From: a virus
Length of the DNA stretch: 50,369 nucleotides
Reading direction: 5' to 3' (one strand)
IMG/VR virus record: IMGVR_UViG_3300023174_002237
Coordinates: 1-50,369 of that record
Shown one piece after another: positions 1-50,369 of this stretch; the stretch's first letter is position 1, and each line of letters begins with the position of its first letter. The notes under the pieces are model-generated. The model was not told where the DNA came from, did no database searches, and saw only the letters and a list, made by a program, of their open reading frames with translations. Made by a program: the position numbers and the translations under genes.

Positions 1-538
1 TCGTAGGAGTTGTTGTCATTAAAGGAGTTGCTGTGGCTATAACTGTGGCTGTTGCTGATTCAATTACAGGGACTGCTGCAGTAATTACTGCCTGTGCTGC
101 AACTACTTCTGGTGTTTGTGTTGTAGCGCTTACTGGAATTGCTGCTACTGCTTGAGTAACGCCAATGATTGTTTGAGTAACTGTCTGGGTAACTGCTGTT
201 GCTGTCTCTACCGCTGTGGACACATTTGATACTTCTGCAACCGCAGTGGTTGCTGCTGCAACTGCTGTATTTGCTGCTGCTACAGCAGCATTAGATGCTG
301 ATACAGCCTGAACTGCTGTAGCTACTGTTACAGTTGCTGTGTCTGATGCCGCTACTGCTTGTGCTACTTCTGTCGTTGCTGTAGCGAGTGCTGTGTTAAC
401 CGCTTGTTGTGCAGGACTTACGACCACTTGTTCTGCAGGCGCTGGAACTTCATCACCATATGCAACGCTGGGTCCAAAAAGGAAAAGCCAGCCTATTATA
501 AAAAGGCTGGTTAAAAAATACTTAATCTTTCTAGTCAA
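1..538 (-). CDS. N-terminal part of a secreted or surface Ala/Thr/Val-rich protein; probably continues into the LamG gene at the right window end
   Basis: The frame starts at a TTG (536-538) with a GGAGAG ribosome site 6 to 7 bases upstream and runs off the window edge without a stop, giving 179 complete codons. The first 28 residues form a signal peptide: a basic start (MTRKIKYF), a hydrophobic core and an AYG cleavage-like end. The rest is almost entirely Ala, Val and Thr with scattered Gln, in repeats like TAVAAA, as expected of an extended or coiled-coil stalk. If the window is circular, the frame continues at position 50369 into LamG-like domains, giving a 714-residue protein. The role could be a surface-exposed adhesin, an exclusion protein or a virion protein. 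No catalytic motif is seen. The coding call is firm because the frame stays open and codon-like throughout; the function is unknown. Confidence 0.75.
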   Translation of the reverse strand, partial: MTRKIKYFLTSLFIIGWLFLFGPSVAYGDEVPAPAEQVVVSPAQQAVNTALATATTEVAQAVAASDTATVTVATAVQAVSASNAAVAAANTAVAAATTAVAEVSNVSTAVETATAVTQTVTQTIIGVTQAVAAIPVSATTQTPEVVAAQAVITAAVPVIESATATVIATATPLMTTTPT

Positions 539-581
539 CTAAGGCTCTCCAAAGTAAAACAATATTTTTGTTTACTTAGTA

Positions 582-590
582 ATTATAGCA
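582..590 (-). promoter_or_regulatory. Extended -10 promoter for the signal-peptide gene
   Basis: On the minus strand TGC precedes TATAAT (582-587), between the FmdB-like stop and the TTG start. The same TGC-TATAAT arrangement recurs upstream of other genes here. No good -35 is visible at 17 bases, so the call rests on the extended -10 alone. Confidence 0.45.
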
Positions 591-605
591 GAGTGTTAGT
601 TTAAA

Positions 606-794
606 TTACTTAGGGTTATCTGTTTTATAAAAGCCATTACCTTTAAACTGTATACCGAATGGAGTAAAGTGTCTGATCATTTGTGATTCACATTGAACAC
701 ATGTGTAACCTGGATCATTTTCTGTTATTGATCTGTTTACTGACATTGTTGCGTGTGCATCATCATATGAGCATTTGTATTCGTATACTGGCAT
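606..794 (-). CDS. FmdB-family small zinc-ribbon-like protein
   Basis: A 62-residue protein beginning MPVYEYKC and ending with GFYKTD, both typical of FmdB-type putative regulatory proteins. The family normally binds zinc with two CxxC pairs. Here the second pair is present (C32, C35), but the first is reduced to a single Cys at residue 8 followed by SYDD, so metal binding may be altered or lost. The ATG has an AAAGGA ribosome site and sits below a structured leader (795-907). Its place between the Hsp20 and surface-protein genes gives no functional hint. Family assignment is fairly secure; the biochemical role is unknown even for cellular members. Confidence 0.7.
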   Translation of the reverse strand: MPVYEYKCSYDDAHATMSVNRSITENDPGYTCVQCESQMIRHFTPFGIQFKGNGFYKTDNPK

Positions 795-907
795 TCCCTA
801 TCCTTTAATTATAGTGAGCAGTTTAAGGACATACTCAGGTCCATCCTGCGGGTAACGGCCCGCTATCTGCGACTTCCCGATGAAGGGGTGCAGATTTCTA
901 TTATACC
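795..907 (-). ncRNA. Structured intergenic RNA or leader upstream of the FmdB-like gene
   Basis: This gap is much richer in G+C than its surroundings and packs three consecutive hairpins. One has a 6-bp stem (865-870 with 890-895) enclosing a smaller CTTC/GAAG stem. The second has a 5-bp GCGGG/CCCGC stem (848-852 with 859-863) and a 6-base loop. The third has a 4-bp GGAC/GTCC stem (827-830 with 839-842). They are followed by a TATAAT (808-813) and the FmdB ribosome site. There is no U-run, so a simple terminator is unlikely. It could be a cis-regulatory leader, a processed small RNA or an end-protection structure. I do not recognise a named RNA family. Confidence 0.45.
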
Positions 908-1330
908 CTACTTGATTTTAATTGTTTTTGGTTTCTTTTCCTCTGGAACAATACGCTCCAAAGAAATACGCAACATTCCATCTTTGACTTCTGCGCCAGT
1001 TACTTCGATGAATTCAGCTAATGCAAATTCACGGGTAAACTTACGGGCTGCAATTCCCTTATGAATTACCTTTTCTGCTGTTGCTTCAGTCTTAATCTCA
1101 CCTGTTACTGTAAGTGTTTGTTCTTTTACAGCAACATCAAGATCATCCTTTGAGAAACCAGCCACTGCTACTTCAATGCAGAAACTATCCTCATCTTCCA
1201 TTTGGATGACGTTGTATGGTGGGTATGTTGATTGTGTTGAGTGATTGTGGATTCTTGAGAGTCTTTCAAAATCTCTATTAAATCCGATAAAAAATGGATC
1301 ATTAAAAAAATCCAGTGTTGTAGTTACCAT
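908..1330 (-). CDS. Hsp20-family small heat-shock protein
   Basis: A 140-residue protein with an alpha-crystallin domain from about residue 38 to the end. Visible landmarks are the beta strands around SFCIEVAVAGF, the KDDLDV segment, a REFAL strand and the DGMLRISL strand. It ends in an IKIK tail resembling the IxI anchor used for oligomer contacts. Small heat-shock proteins hold unfolding proteins in solution without ATP. Phage copies are known, for example in T4-like cyanophages, and may protect virion assembly. The ATG follows an AAGGAG ribosome site and its own promoter with an overlapping inverted repeat, so expression may be controlled separately from the lysin genes upstream. Confidence 0.9.
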   Translation of the reverse strand: MVTTTLDFFNDPFFIGFNRDFERLSRIHNHSTQSTYPPYNVIQMEDEDSFCIEVAVAGFSKDDLDVAVKEQTLTVTGEIKTEATAEKVIHKGIAARKFTREFALAEFIEVTGAEVKDGMLRISLERIVPEEKKPKTIKIK

Positions 1331-1355
1331 TTTTGCTCCTTTTAAGCGAGTTAAA

Positions 1356-1382
1356 TTAGTACCCCCTATTGGCAGGTACTAA
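1356..1382 (-). promoter_or_regulatory. Perfect 8-bp inverted repeat in the Hsp20 leader
   Basis: TTAGTACC (1356-1363) and its exact complement GGTACTAA (1375-1382) flank an 11-base spacer. The predicted transcription start falls inside the upstream arm, so this could be an operator, or a hairpin near the 5' end of the hsp20 mRNA. The ribosome site lies downstream and outside the stem. Confidence 0.5.
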
Positions 1383-1385
1383 TAT

Positions 1386-1414
1386 ATTATATCATTATGG
1401 AACTGGAATTACAA
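1386..1414 (-). promoter_or_regulatory. Promoter for the Hsp20 gene
   Basis: TTGTAA (1409-1414), a 17-base spacer and TATAAT (1386-1391) on the minus strand. It overlaps the end of the HNH gene. Spacing is ideal, the -10 is consensus and the -35 matches 4 of 6. Confidence 0.55.
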
Positions 1415-2048
1415 CTATCTTGGTTGACTTACATCCCTTTAGGCCTGTTATTAATGCCGTTTTTTCTTTAGCATCTATAGACAAACCCCACCTTGCTTTA
1501 ATGGATACCCAATTTGCAATATATTCGCAAACATAGGATTTATTAGTTGGCACCCAGTCTGCTGGGTCTTGATCAGATTTAGATCTATTTGATGATCCAG
1601 TTACCGCAATTAAATGTCTTGGGTCTGTCATATCATTTGCATACTGTTGTCTCTTAAGGTCTGTCCATGCTGATGCTCCAGAGTCCCAAGCTTCTGCAAG
1701 AGGAACCATGTGATCTACATCTAATTTGCCAGCTTCAGTAACTTCAACATTATCATAAATGCTTAACCATTTCCCCCCAGTTAACGCACAATCTTTTCCA
1801 ATTGTTGGCTTAACTAAAGCTTCATCGATAATAACTGATTTACGTGAATCGCATCCTAATTGTCCTGCACGGCTAATTGTAATCCAATGCTTAAACTTTG
1901 TACGTACATATCCTGCACGTACTTCATCTGCAACCTTTATTGAATCAATTGCTTTTTGTACTGTTGTATAAGATTTATTTGCTGCTTCTGCTTGAGAAGT
2001 TGATAGGACTAGTATCAATCCCAAGACTACTAGTCCCACCTTCTTCAT
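1395..2048 (-). CDS. Secreted HNH-type nuclease (DUF1524/GmrSD-C-like)
   Basis: A 217-residue protein with a clear signal peptide (MKKVG, hydrophobic core, AEA cleavage site near residue 22). The catalytic region has DVDHMVPLAEAWDSGA (H113 as general base), then DPRHL and NRSKSD (N154, D159), the pattern of the DUF1524 HNH nucleases secreted by many actinobacteria. Four cysteines in the mature part (C66, C87, C174, C206) could form disulfides, as expected outside the cytoplasm. The ATG lies two bases after the endolysin stop, so the two are probably co-expressed late. It may degrade host or competitor DNA during or after lysis. This role is inferred; fold and export are well supported. Confidence 0.85.
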   Translation of the reverse strand: MKKVGLVVLGLILVLSTSQAEAANKSYTTVQKAIDSIKVADEVRAGYVRTKFKHWITISRAGQLGCDSRKSVIIDEALVKPTIGKDCALTGGKWLSIYDNVEVTEAGKLDVDHMVPLAEAWDSGASAWTDLKRQQYANDMTDPRHLIAVTGSSNRSKSDQDPADWVPTNKSYVCEYIANWVSIKARWGLSIDAKEKTALITGLKGCKSTKIVVIPVP

Positions 2049-2050
2049 AA

Positions 2051-2611
2051 TTACTTTGCCTTCTTTGCTGGTGCCTTAACTGCTGCCTTTTTTACAGGTG
2101 CTGCAGCCTTTGGAGCAGCATCCCAATCTGGGCGAGCTACTGACATAACTAAGCTATAAGGACGCTTCTTCTTAAATACGCCATCTCCGTTTGCTTGTGA
2201 TCCCTTTGTATCTCCCGATGTGTTTCCTTCATATGTTATAAGGTTCTTTCCATCGTTTGAAATAACAATTCCAACATGCTCTGTGTCTGTTGGGGTCTTA
2301 TCAAAGTTAAAGAATACTACATCTCCTGCTTGTGCTTGTCCAATCGGAACAATTCTCTTATTCTTTGCAAACCATTGTGCTCCTGCATCGCATGATGCAA
2401 AGCCCTTCTTTGTTGAAGCAGCAACTAAATGAACTACTCCAGCATCATCAAAGCATCCTGAAACAAACATTGCACACCATGGTTGGTTATTCATTCCATA
2501 ACGCTTTCCAAAAATTGTATCGTTATTAGTTCCTTCTGTGTACTTCTCATCAGCATACTTCTTAGCCGCTGCTAATACTTTTGCTGCATTTGGGTGAATT
2601 ACTTCTGCCAT
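2051..2611 (-). CDS. Endolysin with N-terminal CHAP domain
   Basis: A 186-residue protein with a CHAP-type amidase/peptidase domain over residues 5-160. The catalytic Cys is in QPWCAMFV (C46), the His in EHVGIV (H112), and a polar third residue in YEGN (N130). AGDVVFF before the His is typical of CHAP domains. The C-terminus is a Lys/Ala/Pro-rich tail (about residues 166-186) that may bind the anionic cell wall in place of a classical binding domain. There is no signal peptide, so a holin is expected but is not recognised next to it. The ATG has an AAGGAG ribosome site and a promoter just after tRNA-Gly. A secreted nuclease gene follows directly. Confidence 0.85.
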   Translation of the reverse strand: MAEVIHPNAAKVLAAAKKYADEKYTEGTNNDTIFGKRYGMNNQPWCAMFVSGCFDDAGVVHLVAASTKKGFASCDAGAQWFAKNKRIVPIGQAQAGDVVFFNFDKTPTDTEHVGIVISNDGKNLITYEGNTSGDTKGSQANGDGVFKKKRPYSLVMSVARPDWDAAPKAAAPVKKAAVKAPAKKAK

Positions 2612-2635
2612 TTTATTTCTCCTTATTGTAATTGA

Positions 2636-2654
2636 CTATACTATAAGTATAGCA
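2636..2654 (-). promoter_or_regulatory. Extended -10 promoter with palindrome, for endolysin and nuclease
   Basis: TGC followed by TATACT (2646-2651) on the minus strand lies between tRNA-Gly and the endolysin ribosome site. A perfect 6-bp inverted repeat, CTATAC (2636-2641) with GTATAG (2647-2652), overlaps the -10 and looks like an operator. The TGC-TATACT string also occurs upstream of recA. Confidence 0.5.
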
Positions 2655-2666
2655 TTTCTTTATTTG

Positions 2667-2737
2667 AGCGGATGATCAGAATCGAACTGACCCCTTCTGC
2701 TTGGAAGGCAGAGGCACTACCAATATGCAACATCCGC
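2667..2737 (-). tRNA. tRNA-Gly (anticodon TCC)
   Basis: A full cloverleaf folds on the minus strand: acceptor GCGGATG pairing with CATCCGC, a GCAT/GTGC D-arm, an anticodon stem TCTGC/GCAGA with loop CTTCCAA, and a T-arm GTCAG/CTGAT with TTCGATT loop. The anticodon TCC reads GGA. The discriminator is T and CCA is not encoded. It lies a few bases from tRNA-Arg and upstream of the endolysin promoter. Confidence 0.9.
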
Positions 2738-2741
2738 ATTG

Positions 2742-2814
2742 CGCCGTCGGCAGGAATCGAACCTGCGACCAAGACCTTAGAAGAGTCCTGCTCTATCCCC
2801 TGAGCTACGAAGGC
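2742..2814 (-). tRNA. tRNA-Arg (anticodon TCT)
   Basis: A cloverleaf on the minus strand: acceptor GCCTTCG with CGACGGC (one T:C mismatch at the fourth pair), D-arm GCTC/GAGC, anticodon stem GGACT/GGTCT with loop CTTCTAA, and T-arm GCAGG/CCTGC with TTCGATT. It reads AGA, an A+T-rich codon used often in this phage. CCA is not encoded. The acceptor mismatch could be tolerated or edited. Confidence 0.85.
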
Positions 2815-2820
2815 ATTCCT

Positions 2821-3132
2821 TTAATCGTTTGGAATATCTTCCTCATGCATATTAATCTCTACCAAGCCTAACTCTTTTGCCATTTCATGGCCTTCTTCTG
2901 ACATTTCTATTGTTGCTTCAAGGTTATCATTATATGTAACCTTTATTAATCCCGCCTCATATAGCTGAACCAATGACCTATCTACATGCTCTTGATGGGC
3001 TTCCCATAATTCTGGAGCAATGTATTTTGCTTTTTCTGTAATCTGGAAAATAAATTCTCCATGCTCATCCATACCTGCCAACTCAACTGCACCCATCTCT
3101 AGGTACCTTGATAGTTTCTCGTCATCATCCAT
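2821..3132 (-). CDS. Small acidic protein, possibly winged-helix-like
   Basis: A 103-residue, strongly acidic protein lying between tRNA-Met and tRNA-Arg. The middle, with ELWEAHQEHVDRSLVQLYEAGLI then KVTYND and EATIEMSEEGHEMA, has the helix-helix-wing rhythm of a winged-helix fold (DNA-binding type or a protein adaptor). No catalytic or metal motif is present. An AAGGAGATCG-type ribosome site precedes the ATG. The function is not recognised; co-transcription with tRNAs and terminase is inferred from position. Confidence 0.65.
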   Translation of the reverse strand: MDDDEKLSRYLEMGAVELAGMDEHGEFIFQITEKAKYIAPELWEAHQEHVDRSLVQLYEAGLIKVTYNDNLEATIEMSEEGHEMAKELGLVEINMHEEDIPND

Positions 3133-3144
3133 GCGATCTCCTTG

Positions 3145-3218
3145 TGCAACAAGTAGGACTTGAACCTACGATTACCGAATTATGAGTTCGGGGCTTTAAC
3201 CAACTAAGCTATTGTTGC
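3145..3218 (-). tRNA. tRNA with CAT anticodon (Met, or Ile2 if lysidine-modified)
   Basis: A perfect cloverleaf on the minus strand: acceptor GCAACAA/TTGTTGC, D-arm GCTT/AAGC, anticodon stem CCGAA/TTCGG with loop CTCATAA, variable TAATC, and T-arm GTAGG/CCTAC with TTCAAGT. The discriminator is A and CCA is not encoded. The 1-72 G-C pair argues against an initiator tRNA. Elongator Met and Ile(AUA) cannot be told apart by eye. Confidence 0.9.
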
Positions 3219-3226
3219 TTAGTAAT

Positions 3227-3478
3227 CTATTGTATCGTGCCATCTTCATTCTTGTCAATAGTTTCTTCTACAATTTGCTGCACATATTCAGAAAAATGCT
3301 TTCTAACATTTCCCATAGGCCTGTATCCAGCAGATTTCCAAATTCTTTTATATTCAATTACATTAGTAAATGTAGTTGGACATAATACTATTCCATTATA
3401 CTCTTTTAATACTGTTGGCAGTGGAACATGTTTACCACAGCATTTACATTCCTTGGCTTTTTCTTGATAAGTGCTCAT
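3227..3478 (-). CDS. Small cysteine-containing (zinc-binding?) phage protein
   Basis: An 83-residue protein starting four bases inside the terminase large-subunit stop (ATGA overlap), so it is coupled to it. The N-terminus has ECKCCGKHV (C11, C13, C14) and a later C33, which could form a small metal knuckle. The rest is mixed helical with an acidic C-terminus. HNH nucleases often accompany terminases, but no HNH residues are present. The function is unknown; the conserved position next to terL suggests a packaging-linked or late role. Confidence 0.7.
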   Translation of the reverse strand: MSTYQEKAKECKCCGKHVPLPTVLKEYNGIVLCPTTFTNVIEYKRIWKSAGYRPMGNVRKHFSEYVQQIVEETIDKNEDGTIQ

Positions 3479-5277
3479 ATTATTGTCATCCTGTCCATTG
3501 CATCTCTTAAGTTTTCTGGCATTCTTGGTGCCCTTATCATATTATATGATTCAGTCTCTCCGTCATTTTTTGTTCCAAAGTCATTATCGTAACTCATAGA
3601 CTCATATGTATGTATATTTATTTCTTCGTTTGTATCAAACTTACTTCTGCTTATAGCATTATAAATAGCTCCACAAACTGCGTCCGCCAAGTCTTTTGAA
3701 CCCTTTCTTGGGTGGTCAACCCTGTCTCTCATTATCTTAAGCTGAAGCAATTCATCTATAAGCAATTGTATATGTGGCCCAGACAATCTTTCTTCCGCCA
3801 CGATCATTGCCATATCATCATAATGCTTTTTAGCGACAGATAGAATCTCTGTATTGATGCCGTATTGTTTTAGTTGTTGCATCATATCGTGAGAGTTCCA
3901 TCTGTCAAAGGTGCATACACGAATTTTAAATCCTCGTGTTTTTAATGAAAGAATATAGTCCTTTACTTCCGTAAAGTCTACGGACTTATCTTTTGTTGGC
4001 GTCCAAAATCTTACTGCGTCTATCTCAACAATTGGTGCGGGTTGAGAATATGTATCAGTAACTTTAATGTTAACCCATTTGTTTACATGGCCCATGGCAA
4101 CTGCACAATGGTCATGTTTCTGAGCTAAGTCTACGTGAATAAAATATTCTTTGTCTGGATCTGGAATAAACCAGTCTTCAAGTCTGCCAAAATTATCTAC
4201 TGCAAGATGGCCTTTATTAAAAGCTTTCTCAACCTTTTCTCTTGATTTAAAAAATGCATCAACAGCATCAGGTGGCATACATGCAAATCTAGATAAAGCA
4301 TCCAGTGGGTTAGTAAAAAATGCTACTTTAAAATCATCAATACTTCTTACTGGATTAACTTCCCAGGTGGGTCTTTTGAGAGCATAAACTCTAGGAATTT
4401 TGTATGAAAGAATATGATCTTCTTCCCATTCCACACTAAATTCGTTGCCTTGTGTATCATCTGGCAAGTCTTCATCCATTTTAAACTTATGATCACGAAC
4501 AATAGTTTCTTTTTGAGCCACTACGGCATCATATCTTTGCTGAATATAATCATTCTTGTATCTAGGAAATGACAATAGAATTACTTTTCCAAAGTCTGGG
4601 AAACGAGAATCCACAGATGCACGGTACATATCATATATGGCTGCGCCTGTTTTTGCCTGCTCGTGCCCTGTTGTATTTTCAATTGCAAAGCCTGAGATTT
4701 CATCAAGGATAACTACAATTACGTTATAACCTTCCCAAGCCTCACGCTCTGAGTGTCCTGAGTGTACTGTAATAGCCTTATCAAATTTAACTTCAGAAGC
4801 TTTATCTGTATACTTTCCAGCAAACCACGGTGACTTTTCAATTCTTGTTTTAAACCCTTTAAAGAATACGTTGCTTGCCTGTTGAGAGTTAATAGCAATG
4901 TTAATAATGTCAATGCTATCTCCTGGAGGCTTTCCGTAATATGTGGCTGGATCCTTAAGGCATAATAGTAAATATACTATATATGATACTGCAATAGTTG
5001 AGCAGTAATCTTTTCCCGACCCTTTTCCTAATTGAGCAACTACCTCGTTAGCAGTTTGCTTAAACCTTATTCTTCCTTCTTCTTCTCCAAATAATTTGAT
5101 AAGCGTTGACTCTTTATAAATCTGGGAACTTTTTTCGATAAGCGTGTACTGATAGTCGGAAAGTTCTGGAAGCCCAAGGTATTCTGGACTTCTAACAAAC
5201 GTTTTAAGATCGACTGGTTTCTCATCGAACTCCTCTCCATCGAGCATGTCGATAAGGTCATTGAAATCAAACGACAT
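3475..5277 (-). CDS. terL: Terminase large subunit
   Basis: A 600-residue packaging motor and nuclease. The ATPase half has Walker A GKGSGKD at residues 84-90 and Walker B VIVVILDE ending at 193, with the catalytic Glu directly after Asp. The nuclease half has an RNase H-like centre: HVDLAQKHDH (D383), CTFDRW (D458) and DLADAVCG (D529, D532). The protein cuts concatemers and threads DNA through the portal. It overlaps the small-subunit stop by 11 bases, so translation is coupled. The length is in the usual range. The unusual Walker A form, without the classical GxxxxGK[ST] spacing, is common in terminases. Confidence 0.95.
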   Translation of the reverse strand: MSFDFNDLIDMLDGEEFDEKPVDLKTFVRSPEYLGLPELSDYQYTLIEKSSQIYKESTLIKLFGEEEGRIRFKQTANEVVAQLGKGSGKDYCSTIAVSYIVYLLLCLKDPATYYGKPPGDSIDIINIAINSQQASNVFFKGFKTRIEKSPWFAGKYTDKASEVKFDKAITVHSGHSEREAWEGYNVIVVILDEISGFAIENTTGHEQAKTGAAIYDMYRASVDSRFPDFGKVILLSFPRYKNDYIQQRYDAVVAQKETIVRDHKFKMDEDLPDDTQGNEFSVEWEEDHILSYKIPRVYALKRPTWEVNPVRSIDDFKVAFFTNPLDALSRFACMPPDAVDAFFKSREKVEKAFNKGHLAVDNFGRLEDWFIPDPDKEYFIHVDLAQKHDHCAVAMGHVNKWVNIKVTDTYSQPAPIVEIDAVRFWTPTKDKSVDFTEVKDYILSLKTRGFKIRVCTFDRWNSHDMMQQLKQYGINTEILSVAKKHYDDMAMIVAEERLSGPHIQLLIDELLQLKIMRDRVDHPRKGSKDLADAVCGAIYNAISRSKFDTNEEINIHTYESMSYDNDFGTKNDGETESYNMIRAPRMPENLRDAMDRMTII

Positions 5278-46777: not shown

Positions 46778-48361
46778 TTAGTCAACCTGTCTGCCGTCGC
46801 CCTTAGCATTTCTACCCTCTCCAGAAATATCTGGGGTGTTTGCTTGGCGATCTTGAGATCTTTGTCTAGTATTTCCAGCTACCGCTGTCTGCTCGGCTTT
46901 TGCTGGGCCTTTTAATTCAATAACATCATCTCCACCATCTAGCGGGATCATGCCTTTTCGAATTCTAACTTCATTAGGGGTAATTACCTGCATTCTTAAA
47001 TATCTTTCGTCAATTTTAGACTGAGTATCTTCATCAGTTAAAGTTAATTCATTAAATTTAAGTGCTAGGGCATCTGTCTTTTCCTCAAATATTTTATTTA
47101 CTTTCTTCTCTAAAATCATTTGGGCTGGACGACAAACCTGCTCTTTAAATGTTTTGTCCGCATCTCTTGCCACTGCCAAATTTACGCCTTCTGGGGTTCC
47201 AATTTTATTAATTGGGACACGGTGAGCCAATAAGATTTCATCTCTATTTGATTTACGATAAATATTAAATGAAGACTCCTGTGGATTTGCCTCCACTGGC
47301 TCCATCTTAAATTCTGTCTTTGAGTCTGGGGTGTCTCCTGGAAGTGGAATATATAGAGATCTGTGATTCTTTCCCTTTAATCCAACTTGGAAGAATTCAA
47401 GTAATTTTCTTTCTGATTCTGGAGAAAGTTTTGCGCCCTTGACTGTAATAATATATCTTGGGACCGCCTTGTTTTCAAAGTAGTCTAGGTTATATCTGCC
47501 AGATAACTCATTACCTGCAAGTGCTACTTGTGCTGCAATAATATCTGGGATACCATAGTAATTATTCATAGGGGTATACTTCTTCAAATGAATAATTTCA
47601 TTTGGGCGATCTTCTTGCCCAGCAATTGGATTCTCTGTCATATTGTCTCCAAAATTGCTGAAGTAAACAGCCTTACCATAAAGCAATTGAATAAAGCCAT
47701 CTCTTAGTCTACGTACACGCATTGTTTTTGCTGGGATGTGCCCAATGTATCCAATGTTTCCGCCTGTAGTTCTTCCTATTTCAATATAGCCATTTCCTGT
47801 TGCTTCTAAATCTGTATACACCTTAATTAAAGTTTGAGTAAAAGTATCTTCCTCATTTGTAGTATCAAGCCATGCGTGAATATCTTGGCGCAACTTGCTT
47901 ATTTTTCTACGTGCTCTTTCAAGAGACTTGTCATCTGTGAGTGCATCAAGTGCATCATTTGTTTTCTTTGTTTCTACAAAATCATATCCTAGGCCAACTA
48001 TGTTGGCAACCTTTGCATTTATTGCTGCATAGTTATATGTTGATGTTTCATATACTACCGAAAGATATTCAAGGTTGTATGTTGGCTCTACTAAGTCGAA
48101 CATAGCATATCCTGTAATAGCTTGTGCTAATAGGTTTTGCTGTGTTCCCGTTCCTTCTACGCCAGTAAATGATTTAGAAAACTCTCTGCTTATCTTGCGT
48201 TTAAATGAGGCACCTAGACCTCTAACTTTTTTTAACTCATCTACTCCAACCGCAAATGGGTCATTGCTTGTTTGATCCTTTTTTAGTGAGAACCAGTCTG
48301 CTGTGTTTGAAATATTAATTATGTTTTCAGAACTCTCATCATCAATAAATTCTACGCTCAT
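46778..48361 (-). CDS. Portal protein
   Basis: A 527-residue portal. Landmarks are VVYETSTYNYAAINAKVANI, then LEATGNGYIEIGRTTGGNIG (wing), GIPDIIAAQVALAGNELSGR, YFENKAVPRYIITVKGAKLS (stem side) and LLAHRVPINKIGTPEGVNLA before a long helix (KTFKEQVCRPAQMILEKKVN), the common order of HK97-family portals. It forms the dodecameric DNA gate and binds TerL and the adaptor. Its ATG overlaps the upstream gene by four bases. Confidence 0.92.
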   Translation of the reverse strand: MSVEFIDDESSENIINISNTADWFSLKKDQTSNDPFAVGVDELKKVRGLGASFKRKISREFSKSFTGVEGTGTQQNLLAQAITGYAMFDLVEPTYNLEYLSVVYETSTYNYAAINAKVANIVGLGYDFVETKKTNDALDALTDDKSLERARRKISKLRQDIHAWLDTTNEEDTFTQTLIKVYTDLEATGNGYIEIGRTTGGNIGYIGHIPAKTMRVRRLRDGFIQLLYGKAVYFSNFGDNMTENPIAGQEDRPNEIIHLKKYTPMNNYYGIPDIIAAQVALAGNELSGRYNLDYFENKAVPRYIITVKGAKLSPESERKLLEFFQVGLKGKNHRSLYIPLPGDTPDSKTEFKMEPVEANPQESSFNIYRKSNRDEILLAHRVPINKIGTPEGVNLAVARDADKTFKEQVCRPAQMILEKKVNKIFEEKTDALALKFNELTLTDEDTQSKIDERYLRMQVITPNEVRIRKGMIPLDGGDDVIELKGPAKAEQTAVAGNTRQRSQDRQANTPDISGEGRNAKGDGRQVD

Positions 48362-48699: not shown

Positions 48700-48707
48700 A
48701 GTAATTT

Positions 48708-48736
48708 ATTTTACCATTATTTCCTACACAAGTCCA
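48708..48736 (-). promoter_or_regulatory. Promoter for the portal operon, near-leaderless
   Basis: TGGACT (48731-48736), 17 bases ending TGG, then TAAAAT (48708-48713), eight bases before the ATG (48697-48699). No ribosome site is visible. Confidence 0.5.
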
Positions 48737-48740
48737 GCTT

Positions 48741-48761
48741 TTTGTCAACAAATGTGACAAA
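48741..48761. promoter_or_regulatory. Operator-like inverted repeat
   Basis: TTTGTCA (48741-48747) and its exact complement TGACAAA (48755-48761) flank a 7-base spacer just upstream of the portal-operon promoter. There is no T-run for termination, so a protein-binding operator or upstream activator site is more likely. Confidence 0.45.
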
Positions 48762-48762
48762 A

Positions 48763-50369
48763 TTAAATAGTTTGTATCACTACCCAGTCACTATTGTATA
48801 CTCTTGGAGCAGAATCTGTCAAAGTAAAGGACGTATCTGAAACATAGGCATTTGGACGGGAAATGTAAGAAGTGTAATGATCTAAAGCTAATGTCCCTGA
48901 CATTGCATAATTGTAAATAGCAATATTTTTATACAGGCTTGAAGGTCCCCCTGCGCTTGAATAATTAAACTTTAATACGCCTGATGCAGGTTGTGTTAAA
49001 ACTAATACAATATGATGCAGGTTATCTGCTAGTAATACATTTGATATATTTGTCTGACTTGTCCGATCTACTCCATTTACGTATATCTTTGATATATTGG
49101 TCTTTGTTATGGTCCCGCCCGTTGTCCAAGAATATCTAGAAGCCGTGTAAGAGCCATCTGAGGCCACATCAAACAAGGTGTTAGCCGTAAGGTCAGAAGG
49201 TGTAAAAAACATCTCTATGGTGCTTACAGAGTCTTTTACAGGTATATTAAAACCTGCTCCTGTTTTTGTCTGCAATCCATTATTTTTATGTCTTAAAAGT
49301 GGCGGGTAATTAAATGATCCCAATGAATAATCAGATGTTGATGTTGCATAATACCCTGAATTTTCTGAGTATACATCAATTGATTTATAAAAGTCTAGTT
49401 TAACTGAAGACAACTTAGGAAGGTATTTAGAAGCATCTGTTGTAGACATAGTAATTTTAAGAAATATAACGTTAGATGTTGCTACTGCCGATTTATTATA
49501 ATTAGGCAAAGCTTTTCCATTTTCACATTCGGTGTATGTTATTCCATCTGTACTCGATTGTACTGTTACTCCTTTATCCGCTTTCCAATATACTTTAGAT
49601 GTTGTAGCCCCTAAGTCAACTGGTATATTTATAATATCATTAATTTCAACAGATTTTGCTGTAACCGTATCTGTTTTATAAAATGTAAGTGCTTGATTAG
49701 CCTTATCAAAATAAACATCATCATTAGTATATGTATTTAAATTGTTTAAAACATATCTTTGGACAGGCTTTAGGAATTCATCATTTAGTCCAAATAACTT
49801 ACCGCCATCTGTTCTAATAAATTGAATAGGGTTAACGTGGAATGTTCCAGCAATAAAGTGTGATCTAATTATTTCTGAAGATAAGGCCTCACGATATATG
49901 GCTGGTGCATCCACTATAAAATAGTCACTTGCGGTACATGGACCAATAGAAAGGGCAAGGGCTGTATTTGTAAACTTAAATCCAGTAATTGATTTGGTAG
50001 CAACATTATATCCATCTACATATAATGACATACTGCTTTGTGAATATGTGCCTACAATATGCATTACCTTATTAGTATTATTTAATGTGTAATATAGCTC
50101 TTCGCCTTCTAGTTTAAATACTAGAGATCCCGCCTCATAATAAATTCCAATGCCTGCAGTATTATCTGCTATTAAAATTGTTCTTGAGGTACTGGTAATT
50201 TTAGGATAAACCCAAGCCTCTAAAGAAAAATTATTTTGCGATGTATATTTATTAGCAAATCCGCCACTTACTGTTGAGCCATAATAATCTTTATCTGTAG
50301 ATAAAGTAATTGATTTTGTAGCATTAATTAAATTACCTGATAATCCGCCTGGAACTAATGGAAGGATAT
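48763..50369 (-). CDS. LamG-like lectin-fold protein, C-terminal part; probably joined to the signal-peptide gene at the left end
   Basis: The frame is open from the window edge to a TAA at 48763-48765. It contains a concanavalin/LamG-like domain: FSLEAWVYPKITSTSRTILI, GIGIYYEAGSLVFKLEGEEL, then HIVGTYSQSSMSLYVDGYNV and a closing ALSIGP strand. A beta domain with YWKADKGVTVQSSTDGITYT and a second LamG-like domain (VSTIEMFFTPSDL ... IYVNGVDRTSQTNIS ... LHHIVLVLTQPASGVLKFNY) follow. Such folds bind sugars or act as structural modules in tail proteins. The start codon is not in this part. Joined across a circular junction the frame matches the Ala-rich secreted protein. Confidence 0.8.
   Translation of the reverse strand, partial: ILPLVPGGLSGNLINATKSITLSTDKDYYGSTVSGGFANKYTSQNNFSLEAWVYPKITSTSRTILIADNTAGIGIYYEAGSLVFKLEGEELYYTLNNTNKVMHIVGTYSQSSMSLYVDGYNVATKSITGFKFTNTALALSIGPCTASDYFIVDAPAIYREALSSEIIRSHFIAGTFHVNPIQFIRTDGGKLFGLNDEFLKPVQRYVLNNLNTYTNDDVYFDKANQALTFYKTDTVTAKSVEINDIINIPVDLGATTSKVYWKADKGVTVQSSTDGITYTECENGKALPNYNKSAVATSNVIFLKITMSTTDASKYLPKLSSVKLDFYKSIDVYSENSGYYATSTSDYSLGSFNYPPLLRHKNNGLQTKTGAGFNIPVKDSVSTIEMFFTPSDLTANTLFDVASDGSYTASRYSWTTGGTITKTNISKIYVNGVDRTSQTNISNVLLADNLHHIVLVLTQPASGVLKFNYSSAGGPSSLYKNIAIYNYAMSGTLALDHYTSYISRPNAYVSDTSFTLTDSAPRVYNSDWVVIQTI

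Follow-up and report, generated by a model that had tools for sequence, protein, structure and literature searches.

The two open reading frames at opposite ends of this viral record almost certainly belong, on comparison with related sequences, to two separate genes: one for a LamG-domain protein beside the portal gene, the other for a protein with a signal-peptide-like N-terminus (the SP protein) beside the lysis genes. The SP gene represents what seems, from sequence, to be a real, common and apparently undescribed family in freshwater phages of Actinobacteria. Taken together, the separateness of the two genes and the exported, anchored, adhesin-like anatomy of the SP protein are considered a likely reading, and this estimate does not extend to any role of the protein in masking receptors. 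The window, by which is meant the whole stretch of DNA analysed, is IMG/VR record IMGVR_UViG_3300023174_002237, which comprises 50,369 bases and has no overlap between its termini. The features at its two ends are as follows.

1-538, minus strand: 5' part (179 codons) of the SP gene, cut by the record end; the frame is open to base 1 and the related locus L082 continues it to 878 aa.
48763-50369, minus strand: 3' part of the LamG gene; the related loci L002 and L003 reach an ATG past base 50369.

If the record is circularised, the minus-strand ORF 538-2 runs in frame into the ORF ending at 48763, the joining codon being formed by base 1 and bases 50369-50368, and the arithmetic of the original prediction, a product of 714 residues, is correct on that footing. 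A circular record is indispensable to that product because the two ORFs occupy the first 538 and the last 1607 bases, and an in-frame meeting of two end-open frames would be expected by chance about once in three cases. Beyond the termini, near-identical relatives tell a different story. L082 matches window positions 1-4228 in a single piece at 99.2% identity, extends beyond base 1 and there completes the SP gene to a signal-peptide protein of 878 aa without LamG. L002 and L003 match positions 48700-50369 at 95-96% identity and continue past base 50369 for about 45 further codons to the ATG of a 579-aa LamG protein beginning MSYQLKVIKDHPIVLLPLDESSGT; the window ORF (50367-48763, minus strand) is an open frame, and the first 45 codons of the gene (MSYQ...LQSN) lie outside the record, two bases excepted. 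Both genes are present, and apart, in ten records of 82-116 kb, in which the distance from the LamG end to the SP start is 47.7-60.5 kb as against 48.2 kb in the window. Since the near-identical relatives continue differently past both ends and the ten records keep the genes apart, the junction is false, and the 714-aa protein is, on these comparisons, an artefact that arises when a linear fragment is closed into a circle and two unrelated genes, cut at the ends of the fragment, are fused. The original prediction of one protein combining a signal peptide, a stalk and LamG domains in tandem falls with a junction that is not real, as does the supposed location of its gene, with the lysis/packaging genes on one side and the portal gene on the other, which was a product of the same join. 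It is extremely improbable that a rearrangement peculiar to this phage has produced a true protein of this kind: in a circular record no stop would interrupt the joined ORFs, but the lack of terminal overlap, the diverging continuations of L082 and of L002 and L003 and the separation of the genes in the larger records all oppose it, and more than half the genome would have to have been deleted, with breakpoints exactly at the ends of this assembly. Removal of the false fusion matters in itself, as it would mislead readers who take the record as a circle.

The best explanation of the window is that it is a linear fragment of the genome, some 105-116 kb in size, of a freshwater actinophage, comprising the LamG-to-SP part and about half of the total, because the interval matches that in the larger records and the spacing in Streptomyces phage Kenrey, where the LamG homologue (gene 26) lies about 50 kb from the terminase gene. 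Judged by the larger records, the missing other half would amount to some 55-65 kb. Three records of 104-116 kb (G022, G028 and G019, those behind L094, L124 and L059) have both ends inside the SP gene, in two of the three cases in or near repeats. That these records start and stop there suggests that the SP gene is hard to assemble, repeats apparently breaking the assembly.

The LamG gene beside the portal is a known kind of gene, and three further features, all in the right-hand part of the window, bear on its identity.

46778-48361, minus strand: portal gene, the second gene downstream of LamG (Pfam Phage_portal, E 1e-32; same order in Kenrey).
49867-50247, minus strand: Laminin_G_3 domain of the LamG gene (Pfam PF13385, E 1.5e-14, over the cut-off).
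48817-49320, minus strand: possible second, degenerate LamG-like region, from profile comparison with the first and with no Pfam match.

Two lectin-like domains in tandem had been proposed. The first stands, and was also found in the L002 protein (PF13385, E 5.1e-14), whilst the second has weak support from a profile comparison of the C-terminal with the N-terminal half (probability 79%, E 1.6e-5, 114 columns), a Pfam search with the C-terminal half having given no match. Complete relatives begin MSYQ, MSYK or MTYQ (for example MSYQLKVIKDHPI) and have neither a signal peptide nor a stalk. Homologues occur in 117 Streptomyces phages, those listed being annotated as hypothetical, and the order in these phages of LamG gene, small gene and portal is the same in the window. 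Kenrey (Stanwilliamsviridae) provides the example: the product of its gene 26 (PHROG 11584), annotated hypothetical, is about 25-26% identical to the window protein over 99% of the length and its gene is likewise followed by a small gene and the portal, but it is preceded by an endolysin gene, whereas in the freshwater relatives fibre-like or FmdB-like genes precede LamG. Where the preceding genes are fibre-like, small genes intervene in L002 and L004. The simplest reading of position and domain is that the LamG gene product is most likely an adhesive virion component. The genes upstream of LamG differ completely between close relatives, being Gly-rich and fibre-like in L002 (upstream of 4377) and fibre-like of another kind in L004 (upstream of 9956), and the region looks like a variable host-range module. 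Four loci (L032, L034, L036 and L043) that at first appeared as fused relatives, through tblastn matches covering query residues 8-700, were rejected, as a reading of the ORF revealed a collagen-like fibre gene distinct from the LamG gene that comes after it.

At the other end of the window, the 179 residues of the SP protein are 98% identical to those of L082, and the following features were recognised in and before the gene.

545-550, minus strand: GGAGAG, ribosome-binding site of the SP gene; relatives have a GGAG or GGGG-type site before a TTG start.
455-538, minus strand: signal-peptide-like N-terminus, residues 1-28, from sequence and a crude signal-peptide test, the pattern being kept in relatives.
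1-454, minus strand: Ala/Thr/Val-rich region, from composition, alignment and a low-confidence model of the L082 protein.

The ORF starts with TTG and its product opens with MTRKIKYFLTSLFIIGWLFLFGPSVAYGDE, in which a charged n-region and a hydrophobic core are followed by small residues before a likely cleavage site. An export signal, as in the original prediction, is suggested by the sequence and by the crude test, which is passed by the SP ORF and, among the 55 other genes of the window, only by an HNH nuclease gene (1395-2048). The composition likewise agrees with the claim of about 150 residues rich in Ala, Val and Thr; this region is helical in the low-confidence L082 model (mean pLDDT 51.7) and, by alignment, opens a coil that extends further in relatives. 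The HNH nuclease, encoded on the minus strand (Pfam GmrSD_C, E 2.5e-12), has a signal-peptide-like start, MKKVGLVVLGLILVLSTSQAEA, and 21 relatives in viral contigs, and may be secreted.

With the 179 window residues as query, members of the SP family were found in no fewer than 157 viral contigs. A further scan, in which the distant member L203 served as query, and a search for a C-terminal motif over all loci yielded 63 different complete proteins, which form 13 clusters; only 44 of the 63, in their trimmed form, pass the crude signal-peptide test. Full-length relatives are about 700-970 aa long, complete proteins of the window type about 800-972 aa. In the latter the signal-peptide-like N-terminus is followed by the Ala/Thr/Val coil, a conserved beta-rich domain (with the motifs GYDWTTWSNGSG and RFNADVNP) and a second coil; then come a low-complexity stretch, acidic repeats with a weak match to TerB and the conserved C-terminal domain, after which a hydrophobic stretch (for example MVVATVVATGAALNAV) leads through a Gly/Ser spacer to the basic tail. 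The stalk is Pro/Glu/Thr- or Ala-rich and highly variable in length. By hydropathy only, the C-terminal hydrophobic stretch reaches a KD value of at least 1.6 in 27 of the 28 complete window-type proteins, the exception being L155, whose stretch is below the threshold and whose C-terminus departs from the family pattern. The Ala/Gly/Thr-rich composition of the stretch and the spacer that separates it from the basic tail in most members count, like L155, against the proposed anchoring. The endings of L198 and L199, VVVTIIAGQIVLGTAYRRKV and VIIPVIIVSQVMNAVANILSARRI, respectively, are among the features in its favour. No LPXTG motif was noticed in the C-termini that were read.

The modules of these proteins vary between members. 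In five other members (L226, L243, L254, L260 and L284) a PA14 head is over the Pfam cut-off, and L203 and L212 carry a different N-terminal region and an fn3-like stretch on the same C-terminal domain. L203 and L082 have 68% of the C-terminal alignment in common but not the head, whereas L198 and L082 have 66% of the head and 40% of the C-terminal alignment in common. By these comparisons the modules move independently and heads are swapped between a beta domain, PA14 and a combination of beta domain and fn3. No PA14 domain was found in the window's own record (G000) or in close relatives with the window-type head. Nor was there a second PA14 copy, for instance in tail fibres, that would support receptor mimicry, as each record had at most one.

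The suggestion that no equivalent has been described needs to be divided, as the 714-aa protein itself is not real; for the SP family it holds so far as deposited phages, named families and the open-access literature go. The window-type protein had no match among 50,697 deposited phage records, in which a PA14-type member gave two partial matches, and nothing convincing emerged from NCBIfam or PHROGs. The window-type head matched no family in Pfam, PHROGs or NCBIfam and a profile search of the PDB with it yielded nothing; a model of the head domain, itself poor, gave no significant fold match, and the head may bear some likeness to NIDO-type domains. With the full-length SP model as query, Foldseek placed the umbrella toxin particle Umb1 of Streptomyces first (E 0.021, query TM 0.12), a match discarded in view of the low confidence of the model. 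Scans of genome contigs, each limited to two peptide patterns, found no cellular relatives, and no description of the family was found in the open-access literature.

Gram-positive bacteria display anchored surface adhesins composed of a signal peptide, a binding head, a low-complexity stalk and a C-terminal anchor, and the parts of the SP protein follow the same order, but the SP protein is phage-encoded and shows no sign of LPXTG in the C-termini mentioned above. The superinfection-exclusion proteins Llp of phage T5 and Ltp of phage TP-J34 are small phage-made lipoproteins which, after export, stay bound to the infected cell's envelope. The SP protein would be like them in being phage-made, exported and attached to the envelope, the last two being predicted, but it differs in being large and modular and in having a TM-like segment at its C-terminus, and no lipobox was noticed in it. 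Phage-encoded surface proteins are therefore known as such, and if the predicted export is correct the large, modular, C-terminally anchored kind is one that, as far as we could find, has not been described. The nearest deposited analogue is WJZ48438.1, an uncharacterised 944-aa 'hypothetical protein' encoded at OQ999401.1 14385-17219 (L290:4705-7539) by the freshwater actinophage DSL-LC01 (PMC10611076). It has a signal-peptide-like N-terminus, Thr-rich stalks and C-terminal hydrophobic TM-like segments, and its fn3-like region is 48% identical to that of an SP-family member over 101 residues. However, the conserved C-terminal domain of the family was not seen in it by reading, and DSL-LC01 belongs to another phage group, with another neighbourhood around the gene.

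The neighbourhood of the SP gene in the window includes the following genes.

606-794, minus strand: FmdB-like zinc-ribbon gene, the usual upstream neighbour of the SP gene (matches to Pfam Zn_ribbon_8 and to PHROGs, near the cut-off or short of it).
908-1330, minus strand: small heat-shock (Hsp20-like) gene, by sequence reading; near the SP gene in many relatives.
2051-2611, minus strand: CHAP endolysin gene (Pfam CHAP, E 9e-10; PHROG endolysin, E 4.6e-57).
3475-5277, minus strand: terminase large subunit gene, 62-66% identical to Streptomyces phage terminases.

The FmdB-like gene is upstream of the SP gene in most closer relatives, and the order FmdB-like gene, SP gene, holin-like gene is kept in most of the loci compared, with the CHAP endolysin and Hsp20-like genes nearby and WhiB downstream in closer relatives. 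The presence of WhiB and the relationship of the terminase to those of Streptomyces phages point to an actinobacterial host. The holin-like gene, directly after the SP gene in most relatives, encodes in L082 (6502-6792) a 96-aa protein with hydrophobic segments, for which the best PHROG (E 1.4e-26) is labelled nuclease, a function not suggested by the sequence, and the match to a holin family is weak (E 0.029). Downstream of the SP gene in two loci (L127:17879-18814 and L161:16215-17321) are genes whose products have a signal-peptide-like N-terminus and, by eye, the look of a subtilisin-type protease.

An important consideration is where the SP protein would act. The original prediction placed the joined protein on the surface of the infected cell, and whilst this has lapsed for the joined protein, it survives for the SP gene alone, given the signal-peptide-like N-termini, stalks, beta or PA14 heads and mostly TM-like C-terminal segments with basic tails of the relatives. 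The host would export the protein, of about 880 aa, through its N-terminus, the C-terminal hydrophobic segment would anchor it in the membrane, and the stalk would present an adhesin-like head outside the infected cell; sequence features make export and anchoring probable. The contrary view, that the hydrophobic N-terminus is no working signal peptide and the protein is a virion component, draws on the co-direction of the gene with the virion genes and on the adhesive domains and stalks that fibre proteins too may be taken to carry. It is improbable, as the gene lies among lysis genes about 50 kb from the tail/portal module, and the N-termini, for all that their sequences vary from member to member, retain a positive charge, a hydrophobic core and, close to the likely cleavage site, small residues.

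For a surface protein made in this position, a part in lysis has also to be weighed. Displayed late, together with the holin-like protein and the endolysin, it might weaken the envelope or time its breakdown, and its location in the lysis region, adjoining the holin-like gene in most loci and close to the CHAP endolysin gene, is what would be expected of such an accessory. However, the heads, being PA14 or fn3-like, are of binding type, the searches revealed no enzymatic domain in the SP proteins, the exchange of heads would be unexpected in a lysis timer, and the holin call is itself weak, so that we regard a lysis accessory as unlikely. Because PA14-type and beta heads are exchangeable between phages, the SP head probably binds a surface glycan, one that may itself be variable. 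The role that we prefer for a displayed head, and put forward tentatively, is that it masks the receptor on the infected cell against competing or sibling phages. The same anatomy of signal peptide, stalk and adhesive heads would also serve to stick infected cells to other cells or particles and so place progeny near new hosts; nothing in the sequence tells this apart from receptor masking, and we give it little credence.

With receptor masking as the favoured role, the family may, as a cautious proposal that could well prove wrong, consist of widespread, undescribed membrane-anchored surface adhesins of freshwater actinophages, the heads of which are swapped in a fixed slot beside the lysis genes and which mask receptors or control the contacts of the infected cell. 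If SP proteins do sit on infected cells, phage-encoded modular adhesins would remodel the host surface, and their exchangeable heads would offer a way into the study of how phages of freshwater Actinobacteria compete.
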